7,013 nt of DNA from Planctomycetota bacterium. Its GTDB lineage: Bacteria; Planctomycetota; UBA8108; UBA1146; JAJFFE01. The number at the start of each line of letters is the position of its first letter. The first letter of the stretch is position 1. Under the pieces are notes generated by a model. It saw only the letters and a program-made list of their open reading frames with translations, ran no database searches and was not told the origin of the DNA. The DNA lies in NCBI GenBank assembly GCA_020425835.1, contig JAGQRC010000185.1:1-7013 (forward strand). Reading direction: 5' to 3'. Shown in pieces: positions 1 to 6,820 of the stretch. Position numbers and translations under genes: made by a program.

Positions 1-332
1 TCGAAGTATGAGCCAATACGACTGCGTTTCGCCGGAAGTACTGGCCTTGAAATCTCGGACTCTCGCCTCGAAAGCAGCTTCTCAACGGACTGTAGTGGCC
101 GCGTGCAACAAGCCCGTTGGGTATCTACTCCCGGATTGCGGGACGAACTCGGAACGGCGCGTTGAACGACGCGGGCCACGGAAGTGCTACTCGGGAAGGC
201 GCGAGAACTCCAGGGAATCGCGATGGAATACCTGCGGACGCCGTCGGTGAGCCGCGGGGTGGGCATTGACTCGTCCGCAGGGTTCGCGATCATGCCAAGC
301 TCATAACATTCCCGAACCCCGAGAGCTCTCCC
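1..332. other. Non-coding stretch upstream of the ABC-F gene
   Basis: No gene is supported here. The only sizeable open frame (8-250, plus strand, 80 codons) is rich in Arg and Ser, lacks a ribosome binding site, has no recognisable domain and does not show the strong G/C third-position bias of the neighbouring genes. A TTGACT hexamer at 266-271 could be a -35 element, but no convincing -10 lies 16-18 bases downstream. A 5-bp inverted repeat (CGCGT at 158-162 with ACGCG at 169-173) is too weak to call. The region probably holds the promoter and leader of the ABC-F gene, but I cannot place them. Confidence 0.5.
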
Positions 333-2282
333 GTGCTGCGCGCCCACAACCTCACCAAGTCCTACGGGGGCCAGGTCCTCCTCGACAGCGTCGGCTTCCT
401 GATGAACAAGGGGGAGCGTCTCGCGCTCGTCGGCCGCAACGGCTCCGGCAAGACGACGCTCTTCCGGATGATCCTCGGCGAGGAAGAGCCGGACACGGGG
501 GAGCTGACGACGCCCAAGGGCTACACGATCGGGCATCTCTCGCAGCACCTCTCCTTCCACGAGGCGACGATCCTCGACGAGGTGCGTGCCGCCTTGCCGC
601 CGGCCGACGACGGCATCGATCTCACGTACAAGGCGGAGGCGGCGCTGATGGGGCTCGGCTTCGACCGGGAGGACTTCGGTCGACCGGCGAGCGAGTTCTC
701 GGGTGGGTACCAGATCCGCGTCAACCTCGCGAAGGTGCTCGTCGCCGAGCCCGATCTCCTGCTGCTCGACGAGCCGACGAACTACCTCGACATCGTCTCC
801 GTGCGCTGGCTCGAGCAGTACCTGTCCGCATGGCCGGGTGAGTTGATCGTGATCTCGCACGATCGAGCCTTCCTCCGGGAGGTCACCACTCACACCATGT
901 TGCTCCATCGTCAAGGTGTGCGTCGCCTCGAGGGCTCCATCGAGAAGGTCGTCGAGCAAGTGGCGCTCGAAGAGGAGGTCCACGAAAAAACGCGGCTCAA
1001 CGAGGAGCGGAAGCGGCGGCAGGACGAGCGGTTCATCGAGCGATTCCGCGCGAAGGCGAGCAAGGCGCGCGCGGTGCAGTCCCGGATCAAGGCGTTGGCG
1101 CGGCGCGATGAGATCGAGGCGCTCGAGGAGGAGCGAACGCTCGATTTTCGGTTCCGGTCCGAGCCGTTCCACGCCCCGGTCACCTTGAAGGCGCGCGATC
1201 TCACGTTCGGTTACCCGGAGGGCCCACGGATCGTCGACGGCTTCTCGATCGATGTGGCGCACGGCGATCGCATCGCGGTGATCGGGAAGAACGGTCGCGG
1301 GAAGACGACGCTGCTCGACCTCCTCGCACGCGAACGCGAGCCGCAGCGCGGCGACGTCACGGTCCACCCGTCGGTGCGCTCGGCCTACTTCGGGCAGACC
1401 AACATCGACCGGCTCGACCATCGTCAGACCATCGAGGGCGAGATCCTCGCGGTCCACCCGGAGCACAACCGGGGCAAGGCGCGATCGGTGTGCGGACTGA
1501 TGATGTTCGAGGGCGACCTCGCCCTGAAGAAGATCGGAGTGCTGTCCGGAGGTGAGCGCAGCCGCGTGCTCCTCGGGAAGATCCTCGTCAGCCCTTCGAA
1601 CCTCCTCATGCTCGACGAGCCGACGAACCATCTCGATCTCGAGTCCGTCGAGGCGTTGGTCGACGCGATCGATGAGTTCCCGGGTGCGGTCATCATCGTG
1701 ACCCACAGCGAGATGATCCTGGAGCGCATGGCGAAACGTCTGGTCGTCTTCGATCGCGGCAAGGTGACCTTGTTCGAGGGCGGCTATCGCGACTTCCTGG
1801 AGCGCGTCGGATGGGAGGGCGAGGCGGCGCCGGCGAAGCCCACCCCGCTCTCGGCGTCGAAGGCCGCGAAGTCGAGCCCGCCGAAGTCGAGCGCGTCGAG
1901 CTCCGGTGGGACGAAGCCCGCGACCCAGACGCCCGCGAGGACCCAGCCCGCTAGCACCGGACCCCCCGTCTCTCCGAAGGAGCGTCGCCGACTCCGCGCG
2001 GCGATCATCGCCGAGCGATCGAAGAAGACCGCGGATCTCCGGAAGCGCCGAGATCGCCTCCAGCACAAGGTGGATCGTCTCGAAGAGGAGATCGAGGAGT
2101 TGACGAGGCTCGAGACCGACCTTCGCCAACGCGGTGCGAGCGCCCGGCTCGCGGAGGCCAGCGACCAGCGGCACGAGAAGCAACACGCGATCATCGAGAT
2201 CGCGGGCGAACTCGCCGCCGTCCAGGAGCAGCTCGACCGCGCCGACGCCAAGTTCGAGAGCCGGCTGGCCGAACTGGAGTGA
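333..2282 (+). CDS. ABC-F family ATPase, Uup-like, with C-terminal coiled coil
   Basis: A 649-residue soluble protein with two ABC ATPase domains and no membrane segment, which defines the ABC-F class. These proteins bind the ribosomal E site and act on translation or ribosome assembly rather than transport. NBD1 has Walker A at 34-42 (GRNGSGKTT), signature FSGGYQ at 122-127, Walker B/D-loop DEPTNYLD at 146-153 and switch His176 (SHDR). An Arg/Lys-rich helical linker at about 210-265 matches the P-site tRNA interaction motif. NBD2 has Walker A at 318-326 (GKNGRGKTT), signature LSGGE at 404-408, DEPTNHLD at 428-435 and His458 in THSEM, a departure from SHDR. A Pro/Ser/Ala-rich tether (about 496-548) leads to a charged coiled coil (about 549-649), as in Uup. 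The GTG start is chosen because it places the first beta-strand (LRAHNLTKSYGG) at the N terminus; the ribosome binding site is weak. Class assignment is firm. Uup rather than an antibiotic-resistance ABC-F is inferred from the C-terminal coil. Confidence 0.95.
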   Translation: MLRAHNLTKSYGGQVLLDSVGFLMNKGERLALVGRNGSGKTTLFRMILGEEEPDTGELTTPKGYTIGHLSQHLSFHEATILDEVRAALPPADDGIDLTYKAEAALMGLGFDREDFGRPASEFSGGYQIRVNLAKVLVAEPDLLLLDEPTNYLDIVSVRWLEQYLSAWPGELIVISHDRAFLREVTTHTMLLHRQGVRRLEGSIEKVVEQVALEEEVHEKTRLNEERKRRQDERFIERFRAKASKARAVQSRIKALARRDEIEALEEERTLDFRFRSEPFHAPVTLKARDLTFGYPEGPRIVDGFSIDVAHGDRIAVIGKNGRGKTTLLDLLAREREPQRGDVTVHPSVRSAYFGQTNIDRLDHRQTIEGEILAVHPEHNRGKARSVCGLMMFEGDLALKKIGVLSGGERSRVLLGKILVSPSNLLMLDEPTNHLDLESVEALVDAIDEFPGAVIIVTHSEMILERMAKRLVVFDRGKVTLFEGGYRDFLERVGWEGEAAPAKPTPLSASKAAKSSPPKSSASSSGGTKPATQTPARTQPASTGPPVSPKERRRLRAAIIAERSKKTADLRKRRDRLQHKVDRLEEEIEELTRLETDLRQRGASARLAEASDQRHEKQHAIIEIAGELAAVQEQLDRADAKFESRLAELE

Positions 2283-2286
2283 GGCG

Positions 2287-2302
2287 CGCACGGGACCGTG
2301 TG
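2287..2302 (+). terminator. Weak hairpin just after the ABC-F stop codon
   Basis: Arms CGCACG (2287-2292) and CGTGTG (2297-2302) can pair over six base pairs, one of them G-U, around a GGAC loop, starting five bases after the stop codon. There is no T tract, so intrinsic termination is doubtful. It could be an mRNA 3' end stabiliser or chance in GC-rich DNA. Confidence 0.2.
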
Positions 2303-2326
2303 AGAGGACCTGTCCCCGCACGGTGG

Positions 2327-2356
2327 TCGACGCACCCCTCATCGGAGTGGTATCTT
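2327..2356 (+). promoter_or_regulatory. Possible promoter of the beta-helix gene
   Basis: TCGACG (2327-2332, four of six matches to TTGACA) lies 18 bases before TATCTT (2351-2356, four of six matches to TATAAT), about 50 bases upstream of the ATG at 2406. The 123-bp gap after the ABC-F gene is long enough for an independent promoter. This is a consensus match only; sigma factor preferences in this lineage are not known to me. Confidence 0.3.
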
Positions 2357-2405
2357 CCGCATCGACCCAGCGTCTCAGAGTCGGGAACACGGAGGGGGAG
2401 AGCGC

Positions 2406-3887
2406 ATGCGACGTACGGCACTATTGTTCGTGACTCTGGGGCTCCTCATCGGAAGCCGGGTCTCCGCCACCACGCTCACCGTTCCCGGCGACTTCGCGAC
2501 GATCCAGGGGGCGATCGTCGCGGCGGTGGATGGCGATGTCATCGTGGTCAGCTCGGGGACCTACGCCGAGAACATCAACTTCCTCGGCAAGGCGATCACC
2601 GTTCAGAGTGTCAGTGGTCCGTCGACGACGATCGTCGATGCCGGAGGGTCGGGCTCCGTGGTGACCTTCCAGGCGGGCGAGATGTCGGACACGGTGCTCT
2701 CCGGATTCACGATCACCAACGGTCAGGCGGCCGACGGTGGCGGGATCCTGTGCACGGGCACCGGGTCGCCGACGATTCTCGACTGTCGAGTCGTCGCGAA
2801 CATCGCGGGCGATGACGGCGGCGGGATCTACTCGATCGGTGGGAGCCCGACGATCGCCGGGTGCGAGATCTCCGACAACACCTGCGGCGATGACGGTGGG
2901 GGACTCCTCTGCTCCGGCGGCGCCCCGATGATCGTGGACTGTCTCTTCTCCGACAACGCGGCGATGGGGTCGCCGACGCCCAACGGGGGTGGGATCCACA
3001 CGCGAGACGGTTCCAGCCCGCTGATCACCCGCTGCGTCATTCGAGGCAACTTCGCCGAGGAGGGCGCCGGAGGGATTCGCTGCTTCAACTCCGACGCGAC
3101 GATCACCGATTGCCTGATCATCGGGAACTCGAGCGGGACCAACGGCGGGGGCGTTCGCGCCTACGACTCGTCACCGATCCTCACCAACTGCACGATTCAC
3201 GGCAATTCGGCGATCACCAGCGCCGGGGGGCTGGAGTCGGAATCGTCGTCCTCGACCGTCCTGGTGAACAGCATCGTCTGGGGAAACGGTGCCCCGACAT
3301 CGCCGCAGCTCCTCGCCGGTGGCGCGGGCTCGCTGTCGGTGACCTACAGTGATGTCGCGGGAGGTTGGCCCGGCGTCGGGAACCTCGATCTCGACCCGGA
3401 GTTCGTCGACGCCATCGGGCCCGACGGCTCGCCGGCGACGGGAGACGAGAACTTCCGTCTCACCGCGTCGTCCCCGTGTGTCGATGCGGGCTCCAACGTT
3501 GCGCCAGCGCTTCCCGCGCTGGACTTCGAGGGCGACGAGCGCGTGGTCGACGGTGACGCCGACGGCGTGGCCGTCGTCGACATGGGCGCGGACGAGGTCG
3601 CCGGCGGATTCCTCCGAGGCGACGTCAACTCCGACGGCGTCCTCGACGTGTCGGACGCCGTGTTCGGTCTCGCCGCCCTGTTCATTCCGGGGTCGAGTGC
3701 GCCGACGTGCGACGATGCGAGCGATGCCAACGACGATGGGCTCTTCGACATCTCCGACGCCGTCTACACGTTGGCCGCGCTCTTCATCCCGGGCTCGTCA
3801 CCGACGCCCGCCCCGGGTGGCCAAACGTGTGGTCCCGACCCGACGGCAGACGGCCTCGACTGTGCGGGTCCGACGACTTGTCCGTGA
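2406..3887 (+). CDS. Secreted right-handed beta-helix protein with C-terminal dockerin-like domain
   Basis: A 493-residue exported protein. The ATG follows a strong GGAGGGGGAG ribosome binding site at 2391-2400. Residues 1-21 form a signal peptide (two Arg, hydrophobic core, VSA cleavage site). Residues 22 to about 300 form a pectate-lyase-type parallel beta-helix whose coils recur every 26-30 residues, each opening with Gly-rich GGG or AGG and carrying a DC or similar step. Residues 405-465 hold two dockerin-like calcium loops of pattern DxNxDGxxDxxD (D406, N408, D410, D414, D417 and D440, N442, D444, D448, D451). Each is followed by an almost identical LAALFIPGSS tail. The protein has 15 cysteines and a short Cys-containing C terminus. 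No catalytic residues can be assigned. Such proteins are usually surface or extracellular, in carbohydrate binding or adhesion; any cohesin partner is not in view. A polysaccharide lyase is possible but not shown. Confidence 0.9.
   Translation: MRRTALLFVTLGLLIGSRVSATTLTVPGDFATIQGAIVAAVDGDVIVVSSGTYAENINFLGKAITVQSVSGPSTTIVDAGGSGSVVTFQAGEMSDTVLSGFTITNGQAADGGGILCTGTGSPTILDCRVVANIAGDDGGGIYSIGGSPTIAGCEISDNTCGDDGGGLLCSGGAPMIVDCLFSDNAAMGSPTPNGGGIHTRDGSSPLITRCVIRGNFAEEGAGGIRCFNSDATITDCLIIGNSSGTNGGGVRAYDSSPILTNCTIHGNSAITSAGGLESESSSSTVLVNSIVWGNGAPTSPQLLAGGAGSLSVTYSDVAGGWPGVGNLDLDPEFVDAIGPDGSPATGDENFRLTASSPCVDAGSNVAPALPALDFEGDERVVDGDADGVAVVDMGADEVAGGFLRGDVNSDGVLDVSDAVFGLAALFIPGSSAPTCDDASDANDDGLFDISDAVYTLAALFIPGSSPTPAPGGQTCGPDPTADGLDCAGPTTCP
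2736..3240 (+). repeat. Beta-helix coil repeats within the secreted protein
   Basis: Gly-rich openings GGG/AGG recur at residues 111, 138, 164, 194, 221, 247 and about 274, giving a period of 26-30 residues. Between them the pattern is a small polar turn, SPTI or similar, then D/G/N-Cys and N-x-A/S. The repeats are clear in protein but only partly conserved in DNA, so they look old rather than recently amplified. Confidence 0.7.
3618..3800 (+). repeat. Duplicated dockerin-like calcium-binding segment
   Basis: Two 27-residue segments (residues 405-431, bases 3618-3698; and 439-465, bases 3720-3800) each contain an EF-hand-like loop with acidic or Asn residues at positions 1, 3, 5, 9 and 12, then SDAV, a hydrophobic helix and FIPGSS. 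This is the architecture of a type I dockerin, which binds calcium and docks to cohesin modules. The post-loop helices differ at only two positions over 16 residues (FG versus YT). Confidence 0.85.
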
Positions 3888-4426: not shown

Positions 4427-5446
4427 TTACGGCTTCGACCCCACCAACGCGTGGACGAACGGGATCACGTCCTTCTCGTAGGTGAACTTCCCCTCGAACC
4501 GTTTGGCGAGCTTGCCCTCGCGATCGAAAATGAGGACCGCGGGAAGCGCGAAGGCGCCGTACTTCTCGAGCACGGCGGATGTCGGGTCGCTGCTCATCCA
4601 GTGGCGGTGTCCCGGGGATCGGACGGCCGGGACACGCGCGGACAGTTTCGCGGCGACGCGTCGCATCAGCTGGGCGTCGACGTCCGTTCCACCATCGAAG
4701 TCGACGTCCAGAGTGATCGCGACGGTGTCCTGAGATCGGCTCTCCTGCAACTGCAGGAGGTGCGGCAACTCCGCAACGCAGTGCTGTCACCATAGGGCCC
4801 AGAGGTCGAGGATCACTACTTTGCCGACGAGCTTTCCGAGCTCCTCGTCGATCTGACCGAGCGAGCGGAGCTCGATGCGCTCGTCCGGGATCCCGAGGTG
4901 CTGACGCGCGCGACCCCACACTTCGGCGACCGCTCCTACGTCGAACTTCCCCGGGGCGAACGCGTGGTTGGCCTTCACCTCGGTGTTCGACCACATGAGC
5001 ACCGTCGTCTCCGCCTTCGGCGAGATCTTGTAGTCCGGGGGGCCCGTCGGATCGTCGTACAGGGTCAGCGGGATGTTGACCAGCGTGTGCTTCTTGGCGA
5101 ACGCGACGAGCTCGGCCTCGGCGGTGTCCGGGTCGTCGGTCAGATAGACCAGGAACGCGTGCTTCGAGTCGGCCGTCATCTTGGAGGCGCTCGAAACGCT
5201 CCGATCGATCGATCGGAGCAGCTGGCCGAGCTCCGCCGTGAGTTTCCGCGTCTGGATGTTGATCACGGTCCGTTTGGCGAACGCACACGCGTAGCAGAGG
5301 GACGAGCCCGCACGAGGTCCGGTCACGTCATCCACGTAGAACGCGCCCGCCGTCTCGCCCGGTTGCAGTCCGGACCGAAGCTCGGTCGAATCGACGTCCC
5401 CGAGTGAGAGCAACGTCGCGGCGATCAAGGACAAGAGCGGTGTCAT
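4427..5446 (-). CDS. Predicted selenoprotein: exported two-domain thioredoxin (TlpA-like), UxxC
   Basis: Reading TGA at 4787-4789 as selenocysteine gives one 339-residue protein. Residues 1 to about 17 are a hydrophobic export signal. Residues about 30-185 form an N-terminal domain with its own CYAC motif (C51, C54), of a type I associate with planctomycete Trx-like proteins. Residues about 190-339 are a TlpA/thioredoxin domain: GKVVILDLWALW, then U220-Q-H-C223, then VAELPHLL, with the likely cis-proline P302 in FALPAVLIFD. The classical motif is WCxxC, so the TGA replaces the attacking cysteine exactly. Frame and coding bias are unbroken on either side. The ATG at 5446 follows AGGAG overlapping the stop of the upstream gene, nine bases away, which implies translational coupling. 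Candidate SECIS hairpins follow the TGA. Without Sec insertion, a 219-residue protein lacking its Trx domain would result. The alternative, a nonsense pseudogene, is unlikely given the exact position and the matching neighbour. Confidence 0.87.
4742..4759 (-). promoter_or_regulatory. Candidate SECIS hairpin, distal (second selenoprotein)
   Basis: On the mRNA strand, CUCCUGC pairs perfectly with GCAGGAG (7 bp) around an AGUU loop. The loop begins 34 bases after the UGA at 4787-4789. A G in the first two loop positions fits the loose bacterial SECIS pattern, and the UGC-loop-GCA closing resembles E. coli fdhF. The distance is near the upper end of what I recall as usual, so the more proximal hairpin at 4761-4775 competes for the role. 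Confidence 0.5.
4761..4775 (-). promoter_or_regulatory. Candidate SECIS hairpin, proximal (second selenoprotein)
   Basis: On the mRNA strand, UGCGG pairs with CCGCA (5 bp) around an AGUUG loop that starts 16 bases after the UGA, close to the spacing in E. coli fdhF. One further G-C pair can form if a single U is bulged just below the stem, which recalls the bulged U of fdhF. The stem is shorter than the distal hairpin, but the spacing is better. The two hairpins are adjacent and could coexist. Confidence 0.5.
4787..4789 (-). other. Predicted selenocysteine codon (UGA), U220
   Basis: The in-frame TGA lies between TGG (Trp) and CAG-CAC-TGC (Gln-His-Cys), giving WUQHC where thioredoxins have WCxxC. 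The frame stays open for 219 codons upstream and 119 downstream. Confidence 0.87.
5198..5219. repeat. Perfect 22-bp palindrome inside the second selenoprotein gene
   Basis: Arms of 11 bp (GCTCCGATCGA and its reverse complement) meet without a spacer, with a core of overlapping CGATCG steps. It encodes part of LLRSIDRSVS in the N-terminal Trx-like domain. It may be chance in GATC-rich coding DNA, or a protein-binding or restriction-modification site. No second copy was noticed in the window. Confidence 0.6.
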
Positions 5447-5455
5447 GCGACTCCT

Positions 5456-6820
5456 CTACAGATCGACGCCTTCGATCACTCGAACCTCGAGCTCCACCTT
5501 GGCCTCACCCCGCACGACGGAGAGGGTGATCTTCTGGGTCGGGTGGCTCGCGAAGTAGCCGATCAGATCCGATTCGGTCCGGGGCTCGGTCTTCCCGTCG
5601 ACGGCCACGATCACGTCCCCGCGTTGCAGCGGGCTGCTGCTCCCGCGTCGTCCACGCGCCGCCTTGAGCGCGAGTTTCCCCGCGGGGATCTCCAAGGCGG
5701 AGCGCTCCTCATCGGTGGCCTCACGGAATTGGTAGCCGCCGAGCAGCCGGGACCGCAGGACACGCGTGGTGGTCCGCCAAGAGATGTCGGTCTTGCGCCG
5801 CCAGCCACTCTCGAGGTCTAGAGCGATCGACACGGGCTCGCCACCGCGCTCGACCTTGGCCTCCAGTCGGCCCGCATCCGACGTGTTCTGGAGCACCCAC
5901 TGGCGATCCGCGATCGAGAAGATCGGTTGCCCCTGGAGCTCCCGGATCTCGTCGCCCTCGCGGAAGCCGGCCTTCGCCGCCGCCGATGCGTCGACCACCC
6001 GACGGATCGTCGCCCGTTCCCTCGGATCGAGATCCAGTCCGACGACCGCCGGCATCGGCCAGGCGAACAGCACGTCATCGGGAATCGGCTCTCCGCGCGC
6101 GAGGTAGGAGAGCTGTCTTCGGTTGCCGAGGTCGTGGCAGTGGGAGCAGCGACCTCCGCGCCCCTCTTCGTCGCGGCGGCGTCGCCGTCCACCCTCCTCA
6201 CCCTCGCGTTCGTCCGGGCCTCGGCCGCGGCGCGGTCCGCGCGCCCCCGCCTCGCGCGGGAAGTCGGCGAGCTTGCGGTACTCGGGGGTCGCGCCGCGCT
6301 TCCCGGCGAGGGCGCCCTTCGCCTCCGCGTCCTTCGCGTGCCACTCGAGCGCGGACTCCATCGCCTTCTGCAAGCTGTCGAGGGAGACGTCTCGCTCCGC
6401 TTCGGCGAACGAGCTTCGCGAGCCGTAACGTCCGTAGATCGTCTGGTCGGCGTCGATGAAGAACACCGCGAACGAAAGGTCGGGATCGAAATCGAAGAGG
6501 GCCAGATCGAGCGTCTCGGCGCGGACCAGCCGCACGCAGACGAATCGGTCCATCAGCTCCTTCAGCTTCGGGTTGCGACGAACCACCTGTTCGTCGATGT
6601 CGGCGCACGAGCTTCACGGCGGGCAACGGAGCACGACCATCAGGGGTCGACCACTCTCCTTCGCCTGGGCGAGGCCCGCGTCCCAGTCGTCGTAGATCCA
6701 ACCGTTCTCGACCGCCGCCTCGCGGTCCCACGCGGGCGGGAAGTCCCGCAGCGCGGCCCCGATCAGCGGCACCGCCGCGACGAGACACACCCAGAGTCCT
6801 GCACGATGTCGCACGTTCAC
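5456..6820 (-). CDS. Predicted selenoprotein: exported thioredoxin-like/PDZ protein with UxxC and CxxCH
   Basis: Reading TGA at 6614-6616 as selenocysteine gives a 454-residue protein. Residues 1 to about 24 are a signal peptide or membrane anchor. Residues about 35-165 are a Trx-like domain: a strand MVVLR, then C66-P-P-U69-S-S-C72, then FVCVRLV and LSFAVFFIDADQTIYGRYG. A low-complexity Arg/Gly/Glu tether (about 190-224) leads to C225-S-H-C228-H229, a possible c-type haem site. PDZ-like domains follow at about 260-336 and 376-450 (AAKAGFREGDEI and SPLQRGDVIVAVDG). I recall NCBI naming a family Trx7/PDZ domain-containing (seleno)protein; this looks like a member, from memory only. The GTG start at 6820 is chosen for the export signal and an AAGGGGA ribosome binding site. 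An internal GTG at 6586 would tempt gene callers to drop the N terminus and redox site. It is first in a tight pair with the gene ending at 4427. Confidence 0.9.
6576..6596 (-). promoter_or_regulatory. Candidate SECIS hairpin (first selenoprotein)
   Basis: On the mRNA strand, arm CGACGAAC pairs perfectly over 8 bp with GUUCGUCG around the loop AGGUG. The loop starts 25 bases after the UGA at 6614-6616. Its first four bases, AGGU, are those of the E. coli fdhF SECIS apical loop, where G and U contact SelB. The stem is in coding sequence (residues 76-82), as bacterial SECIS elements are. Confidence 0.78.
6614..6616 (-). other. Predicted selenocysteine codon (UGA), U69
   Basis: The in-frame TGA lies after TGC-CCG-CCG (Cys-Pro-Pro) and before AGC-TCG-TGC (Ser-Ser-Cys), giving CPPUSSC at the Trx-fold redox site. 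The frame is open for 68 codons before and 385 after. Cysteine relatives that I recall carry RCxPCxxC here. Confidence 0.9.

Follow-up and report, generated by a model that had tools for sequence, protein, structure and literature searches.

The stretch of DNA analysed here (the window) comprises 7,013 nucleotides of a Planctomycetota bacterium contig (JAGQRC010000185.1, assembly GCA_020425835.1), and our interest lies in two neighbouring minus-strand genes within it, referred to as gene A and gene B. When positions 6820-4427 of the minus strand are translated with TGA read as selenocysteine (Sec, U), exactly two TGAs are encountered, U69 in gene A and U220 in gene B. Gene A (5456..6820, minus strand) begins with GTG, ends with TAG (5458-5456) and encodes 454 residues of a Trx7/PDZ-family (seleno)protein, as judged by its translation, its family score and its Pfam domains; its in-frame TGA occupies 6614..6616 (minus) within LRCPPUSSC. 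Gene B (4427..5446, minus) starts at an ATG (5446), ends with TAA and encodes 339 residues in which a CYxC domain is fused to a TlpA/ResA-like UxxC domain, an arrangement supported by its translation, its Redoxin score and the existence of stand-alone homologues of the first domain; its in-frame TGA lies at 4787..4789 (minus) within WALWUQHC. The 9-base gap between the genes (5447..5455, minus) falls in a Shine-Dalgarno-like AGAGGAG region located directly 5' of the gene B ATG. A promoter scan returned no promoter and one terminator-like site versus 1.0 expected.

These coordinates and translations agree with an earlier note on this DNA, which described adjacent minus-strand genes nine bases apart with a single in-frame TGA each. 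As that note also proposed, recognizable domain sequence continues in frame on either side of each TGA, with the Pfam matches Thioredoxin_7 (residues 41-124 of gene A) and Redoxin (residues 202-322 of gene B) spanning both codons. The public gene calls for both genes are cut off at the TGA, which indicates that standard annotation loses such genes. By our arithmetic, the chance that one random stop per gene would strike the catalytic codon in both is approximately 1 in 455 x 340.

Gene A scored 361 bits against the NCBIfam model NF041199 (Trx7/PDZ (seleno)protein; cut-off 300), contains the Pfam domains Thioredoxin_7 and PDZ, and gave a fold search filled by PDZ-containing proteins. NF041199 is an entry in Table 1 of a 2026 review, with U in CxxU/UxxC (PMC13188914), and we read the 'MucD' with CxxC/U fused to PDZ, described in a marine survey (PMC9402790), as the same family. 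Gene A by itself is a known family and not new; it shares with NF041199 the score, Thioredoxin_7, PDZ and the Sec site, and differs from it in nothing essential, the window copy being a new member set apart by its neighbour gene B. In an AlphaFold2 model U69 is placed just before helix 70-80 and after strand 60-64, which in this predicted structure is the usual thioredoxin position. Of 185 matched homologues, the best 120 were listed and used for residue-level counts. A CxxCH motif (CSHCH in gene A, residues 225-229, 6134..6148, minus) is kept in 120/120 of these, though neither Pfam nor NCBIfam detects a cytochrome c domain in gene A. Among the matches listed, the ten closest proteins after the window's own (P0004-P0013) have N-termini lying past the TGA column, the outcome expected of gene callers if the codon there were also TGA; the next homologue (P0014) has Cys in this column.

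Members of the gene A family were present in 99 of 294 sampled genomes (88 above the cut-off) from the phylum of the planctomycete metagenome-assembled genome casp150-mb.177, hereafter G001 (G numbers designate genomes and L numbers loci). According to our table count, 71 of the 99 genomes have one or more matches containing TGA and the other 28 have none, with the position of the TGA within the match checked only in the opened loci and with one of the 28 (G006) represented by a fragment without the thioredoxin part. Thirty loci were opened, of which 17 were readable with TGA and 12 with Cys, while L082 was cut by the contig end in the first reading. In all 17 TGA loci the TGA replaces the first Cys of CxxC, and the second is retained as Cys. 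Eight of them contain an extra TGA three residues upstream, giving UxxUxxC, and on recount the L082 copy reads UxPUxxC. Copies with two TGAs were seen at L073, L076, L079, L082, L083, L086, L088, L096, L100 and L117; the Trx7/PDZ entry in the review table has one Sec (PMC13188914).

A hairpin resembling a bacterial selenocysteine insertion sequence (SECIS) follows the gene A TGA (6577..6595, minus; 7 pairs, loop AGGUG), the loop beginning 25 bases after the TGA. The bacterial SECIS rules, as quoted in the review, call for a stem of 4-16 pairs, a loop of 3-9 with a G in its first two positions, a distance of 16-37 bases from the UGA and an energy of -7.5 or lower (PMC13188914); the gene A hairpin, with 7 pairs, AGGUG, 25 bases and -10.6 kcal/mol, falls within all of them. 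The 17 TGA copies form a gap-free alignment of 48 bases, and the helix formed by columns 22-28 with 34-40 is paired in 70.6% of 119 cells, as compared with 17.9% of 56 cells in 8 Cys copies. Both the paired cells and the covariation score of the TGA copies exceed 500/500 shuffles. The search pattern that defined this 17/8 set did not capture L079, L117 or four of the Cys copies, and a recount over every opened locus gave 96/133 paired cells in 19 distinct TGA copies versus 13/84 in 12 distinct Cys copies. A subset of nine copies, picked post hoc and with the window among them, has 95.2% of cells paired; most of the other TGA copies are paired in a register shifted by one base, and L084 and L089 are a poor fit. 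TGA copies thus preserve the gene A hairpin through compensating changes and Cys copies lose it, to an extent beyond chance.

Gene B had been described in the earlier note as TlpA-like. This description suits its second domain, a TlpA/ResA-like UxxC domain passing the gathering thresholds of both Redoxin (PF08534; 31.4 bits versus 26.6) and AhpC-TSA (32.5 versus 26), and does not suit the whole gene, which is a two-domain fusion. A single TlpA-like protein is ruled out by 29 homologues of 186-224 residues that cover the first domain alone. The CYAC motif of this first domain (residues 51-54; 5285..5296, minus) keeps both C51 and C54 unchanged throughout an alignment of 22 proteins, and no Pfam or NCBIfam model covers the domain. 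A peroxiredoxin/TlpA-like fold is predicted for it, and from predicted secondary structure the CYxC seems to precede the strand bearing the usual TlpA/peroxiredoxin active site. The structure model of the second domain was of low confidence and was not used. Identity to TlpA, ResA, DsbE/CcmG and peroxiredoxins is about 10-14%. Gene B resembles the ResA-like WAxxUGC protein NF041054 in its TlpA/ResA-like fold and in the U following WAxx, and differs from it in reading WALWUQHC; membership in NF041054 was rejected at 19.5 bits, the cut-off being 300. Searching PDB sequences with the profile of gene B gave no match, and 34 pattern matches in viral contigs included no relative.

A scan of genome contigs for gene B relatives yielded one locus, L001 of G001, where a row on one strand comprises a Cys TlpA gene, a first-domain gene with CYRU, a beta-propeller/di-heme cytochrome gene and a TlpA gene with WALWUGHC. 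Thirty of the 294 sampled genomes contain the first domain; 20 contain the second, and each of these 20 has the first as well. The two lie within 3 kb of each other in 7 of these 20 genomes (G001, G265, G239, G182, G070, G049 and G228, which may be close kin). The row was opened in G001, G239 and G070, leaving G182, G049 and G228 aside; G239 and G070 show an all-Cys version consisting of the first domain, the di-heme cytochrome and TlpA. The conserved row of CYxC/CYxU protein, beta-propeller/di-heme cytochrome (two CxxCH) and TlpA occupies L001 10587-13952, L067 4466-7698 and L068 5641-8929. Outside the window, WALWUxHC copies were found in three genomes (G001, G265 and G376), fused to the first domain in G265 and separate, near a CYRU relative, in G001 and G376. 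The fused G265 gene carries CYAS together with WALWUAHC (L063, minus strand, first domain upstream of 5827); the first domain can evidently lose its second Cys while the UxxC site is kept. G376 came from a search of 170 genomes of the order of G001, among the matches listed, and its CYRU and WALWUSHC genes are separated by approximately 100 bases, with the start codon picked by eye; a protein search with the G376 TlpA returned four distant proteins. TGA-containing TlpA matches in G217, G088, G106 and G438 (L136) were considered as further Sec copies and dropped, as their active sites read Cys. The TlpA matches L056 and L059 stood outside the pattern reading and have no stops in the match table. 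Since the two domains of gene B are fused in the window and in G265, adjacent in G376 and part of one row with the cytochrome in G001, G239 and G070, we infer that they are functionally linked.

The gene B hairpin (4761..4775, minus; 5 pairs, loop AGUUG) has its loop beginning 16 bases after the TGA, so that both genes show the AG-starting loops the earlier note had pointed out. Its stem, which was picked after viewing the four Sec copies, is complete in 4/4 of these (20/20 cells) and in 0/30 Cys copies (58/150 cells), and two of its pairs have changes on both sides among the Sec copies. The 42-base fold of the window sequence reaches -15.4 kcal/mol.

Relatives of the gene B first domain also include 14 copies reading CYxU, in which TGA replaces the second Cys of CYxC (L001 10587-11177, L140 7467-8027, L028, two in L031, L032, L034-L038, L104, L106 and L107). 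These copies have the look of a selenoprotein family not yet listed. TGA falls within the match in nine of the 30 first-domain genomes, and 9/9 of these have a strong tRNA-Sec match as compared with 2/21 of the others (p = 4e-6), strong being defined by our threshold of E < 1e-10, above the tRNA-Ser-like cross-matches. A search for a common CYxU hairpin was negative, the best register pairing hardly better than in Cys copies. One 8-pair helix fully fits 4/14 CYxU copies (71/112 cells versus 62/168 in Cys copies), and most slid versions of it favour the Cys copies in raw numbers.

Analysis of the Sec machinery placed selB above the cut-off in the three WALWUxHC genomes (G001, G265 and G376), with none above the cut-off in G239, G070, G182, G284 or G327. 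ARAGORN finds tRNA-Sec (TCA) in G265 and G001, and G376 has a 70.6-bit tRNA-Sec match. G001 contains selA, which is above the cut-off in 10/20 genomes, and selD, which is above it in 4/13. For the gene A family, a strong tRNA-Sec match is present in 60/71 TGA genomes, with the remaining 11/71 counted as misses, versus 10/28 genomes without TGA (Fisher p = 4e-6, in a test that ignores relatedness). The selD matches in L113, G134 and G236 each contain one internal TGA, suggesting that SelD there may itself be a selenoprotein.

The membership of gene A in NF041199, the Cys or TGA found in both catalytic columns, the covarying hairpins, and the presence of selB and tRNA-Sec in the WALWUxHC genomes led us to conclude that both window TGAs very probably encode selenocysteine. 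The claim of two adjacent selenoprotein genes is strongly supported by these same lines of evidence, and so is the placement of each TGA at the first redox residue of a CxxC: the opened relatives of both genes, which the earlier note had suggested examining at U69 and U220, hold Cys or U in these columns. Decoding in the source organism would presumably be SelB-dependent. Both proteins appear to be exported beyond the inner membrane, as suggested by hydrophobic N-termini judged by eye.

The pairing of gene A with gene B is partly supported. Besides the window, homologues of both seem to be present on five public contigs, as judged only by equal longest-contig sizes (2201, 2734, 2940, 15433 and 225466), and the gene B homologue on these contigs is the first domain alone. 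The pairing described in the earlier note stands to the extent that both homologues seem to occur together elsewhere, and does not extend to the fused form of gene B. The A-B link draws on adjacency and on these equal contig sizes, the latter being strong but indirect evidence, and the best evidence of linkage is within gene B and not between A and B.

We consider it probable, if well short of certain, that gene A and the adjacent fused gene B each use a single TGA as a likely catalytic Sec codon by way of the downstream hairpin, and that their products form a linked extracytoplasmic electron relay. In such a relay both proteins would operate outside the inner membrane, and the UxxC domain of gene B, acting as a disulfide reductase of the TlpA/ResA type, would exchange electrons with the fused CYxC domain. 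The domain pair would then serve a partner carrying CxxCH motifs. In related genomes the di-heme cytochrome, whose gene separates those of the two domains, might be this partner; in the window gene A, which has both a UxxC site and a CxxCH of its own, is the candidate. A more ambitious proposal, which we put forward tentatively, is that a CYxC/CYxU family protein, a UxxC TlpA and a di-heme cytochrome constitute a new selenium redox module, an extracellular selenol-to-heme line in which Sec would sit on different members by lineage and in which, in the window, the first two members are fused and Trx7/PDZ replaces the cytochrome.

Several observations weigh against the linked relay and its Sec sites. 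The second domain of gene B is represented by only four Sec copies, and 34/500 shuffles reach their covariation score. The G001 loop reads ACCUC without the G expected by the SECIS rules, and the gene B window hairpin alone has -7.0 kcal/mol, just short of the -7.5 rule. The 42-base stretches taken alone fold no better than shuffles (z = -0.19 for A and -0.95 for B), and an Rfam search of the window found no entry. Neither selA nor selD was found in G265, an assembly that may be incomplete. Finally, the gene A and gene B homologues of G265 lie on different contigs, and G376 has no gene A match above the cut-off.

The last two observations would also be expected if both genes encode selenoproteins that act separately, gene A in a redox or protein-quality role of its own involving PDZ and gene B as a general extracytoplasmic reductase, with adjacency reflecting co-expression only. 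The unequal distribution of gene A (99/294 genomes) and the gene B first domain (30) fits this explanation as well, while the nine-base spacing and the five contigs apparently carrying both homologues speak for a closer association, and we regard separate action as unlikely, though deserving of attention. A serious rival to the relay, to which we assign a slightly smaller chance, is a role for gene B in cytochrome maturation. ResA and CcmG reduce the cysteines of apo-cytochrome CxxCH motifs before heme attachment; a CcmG/ResA-like selenoprotein encoded by gene B could do the same, with gene A or the cytochrome as its client. The TlpA/ResA similarity of the second domain, the placement of a di-heme cytochrome gene between those of the two domains (G001, G239 and G070), and the CxxCH of all listed gene A homologues are consistent with maturation, and the lack of a Pfam or NCBIfam cytochrome c domain in gene A argues against it.

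It is very improbable that the TGAs are true stops, whether through a pair of nonsense mutations, errors in sequencing or gene decay. Such an origin would accommodate window hairpins that are not significant on their own, yet both TGAs fall on catalytic columns, the frames remain intact beyond them, and the same TGA and covarying hairpins recur in relatives, in keeping with the earlier argument that two nonsense mutations were unlikely. Genetic codes with TGA as a sense codon exist, and a reading of TGA as, for example, Trp throughout this organism can be dismissed almost entirely, because TGA terminates two other window genes, an ABC-F gene (2280-2282) and a beta-helix gene (3885-3887), and so is no general sense codon here, and because both columns of opened relatives hold Cys or TGA and never Trp.

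With regard to known systems, the proposed relay of genes A and B combines familiar and apparently new parts. The UxxC Redoxin/TlpA domain is of a known kind: Redoxin (PF08534) UxxC and thiol-disulfide isomerase-like (cd02966) UxxC selenoproteins have been listed (PMC13188914), and the second domain of gene B shares with them the Redoxin score and the U at the first active-site Cys, while gene B differs from them in its extra fused CYxC domain outside Pfam and NCBIfam. Several selenoprotein genes side by side, as in the window, are also described for the grdA-grdB, prdB-prdC, frhA-frhD-hdrA, SAO and Tso operons in the review (PMC13188914), and none of the operons named in its operon section pairs a Trx7/PDZ protein with a TlpA/Redoxin protein. 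The A-B pair, the CYxC-UxxC fusion and the CYxU variants are apparently new. No entry of the 119-entry table of that review (name, domain accession and motif) fits any of the three, its operon section describes none of them, and no description was found in the titles and abstract openings of the open-access papers listed. A planctomycete genome paper, as far as its available text indicates, has a selenoprotein list in its supplement that may include some of these proteins (PMC4807772).

Most prokaryotic selenoproteins are without clear function, according to the review (PMC13188914). In our opinion a lack of known partners is part of the reason, and it is partners that fusions and conserved gene rows point out. 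By tying together two thioredoxin-fold domains that carry Sec in some genomes, with a di-heme cytochrome added in relatives, the present arrangement would make the role of extracytoplasmic selenol chemistry testable, and the CYxU domain would add a family to the 119-entry list of PMC13188914.

Elsewhere in the window, positions 2406-3887 encode a beta-helix protein that looks secreted and has dockerin-like repeats towards its end, and repeats of similar appearance are found in a G265 gene adjoining the fused gene (L063 4745-5329). A 796-codon open frame at 3-2390 (minus), antisense to the ABC-F gene, is probably an artefact of G+C-rich coding.

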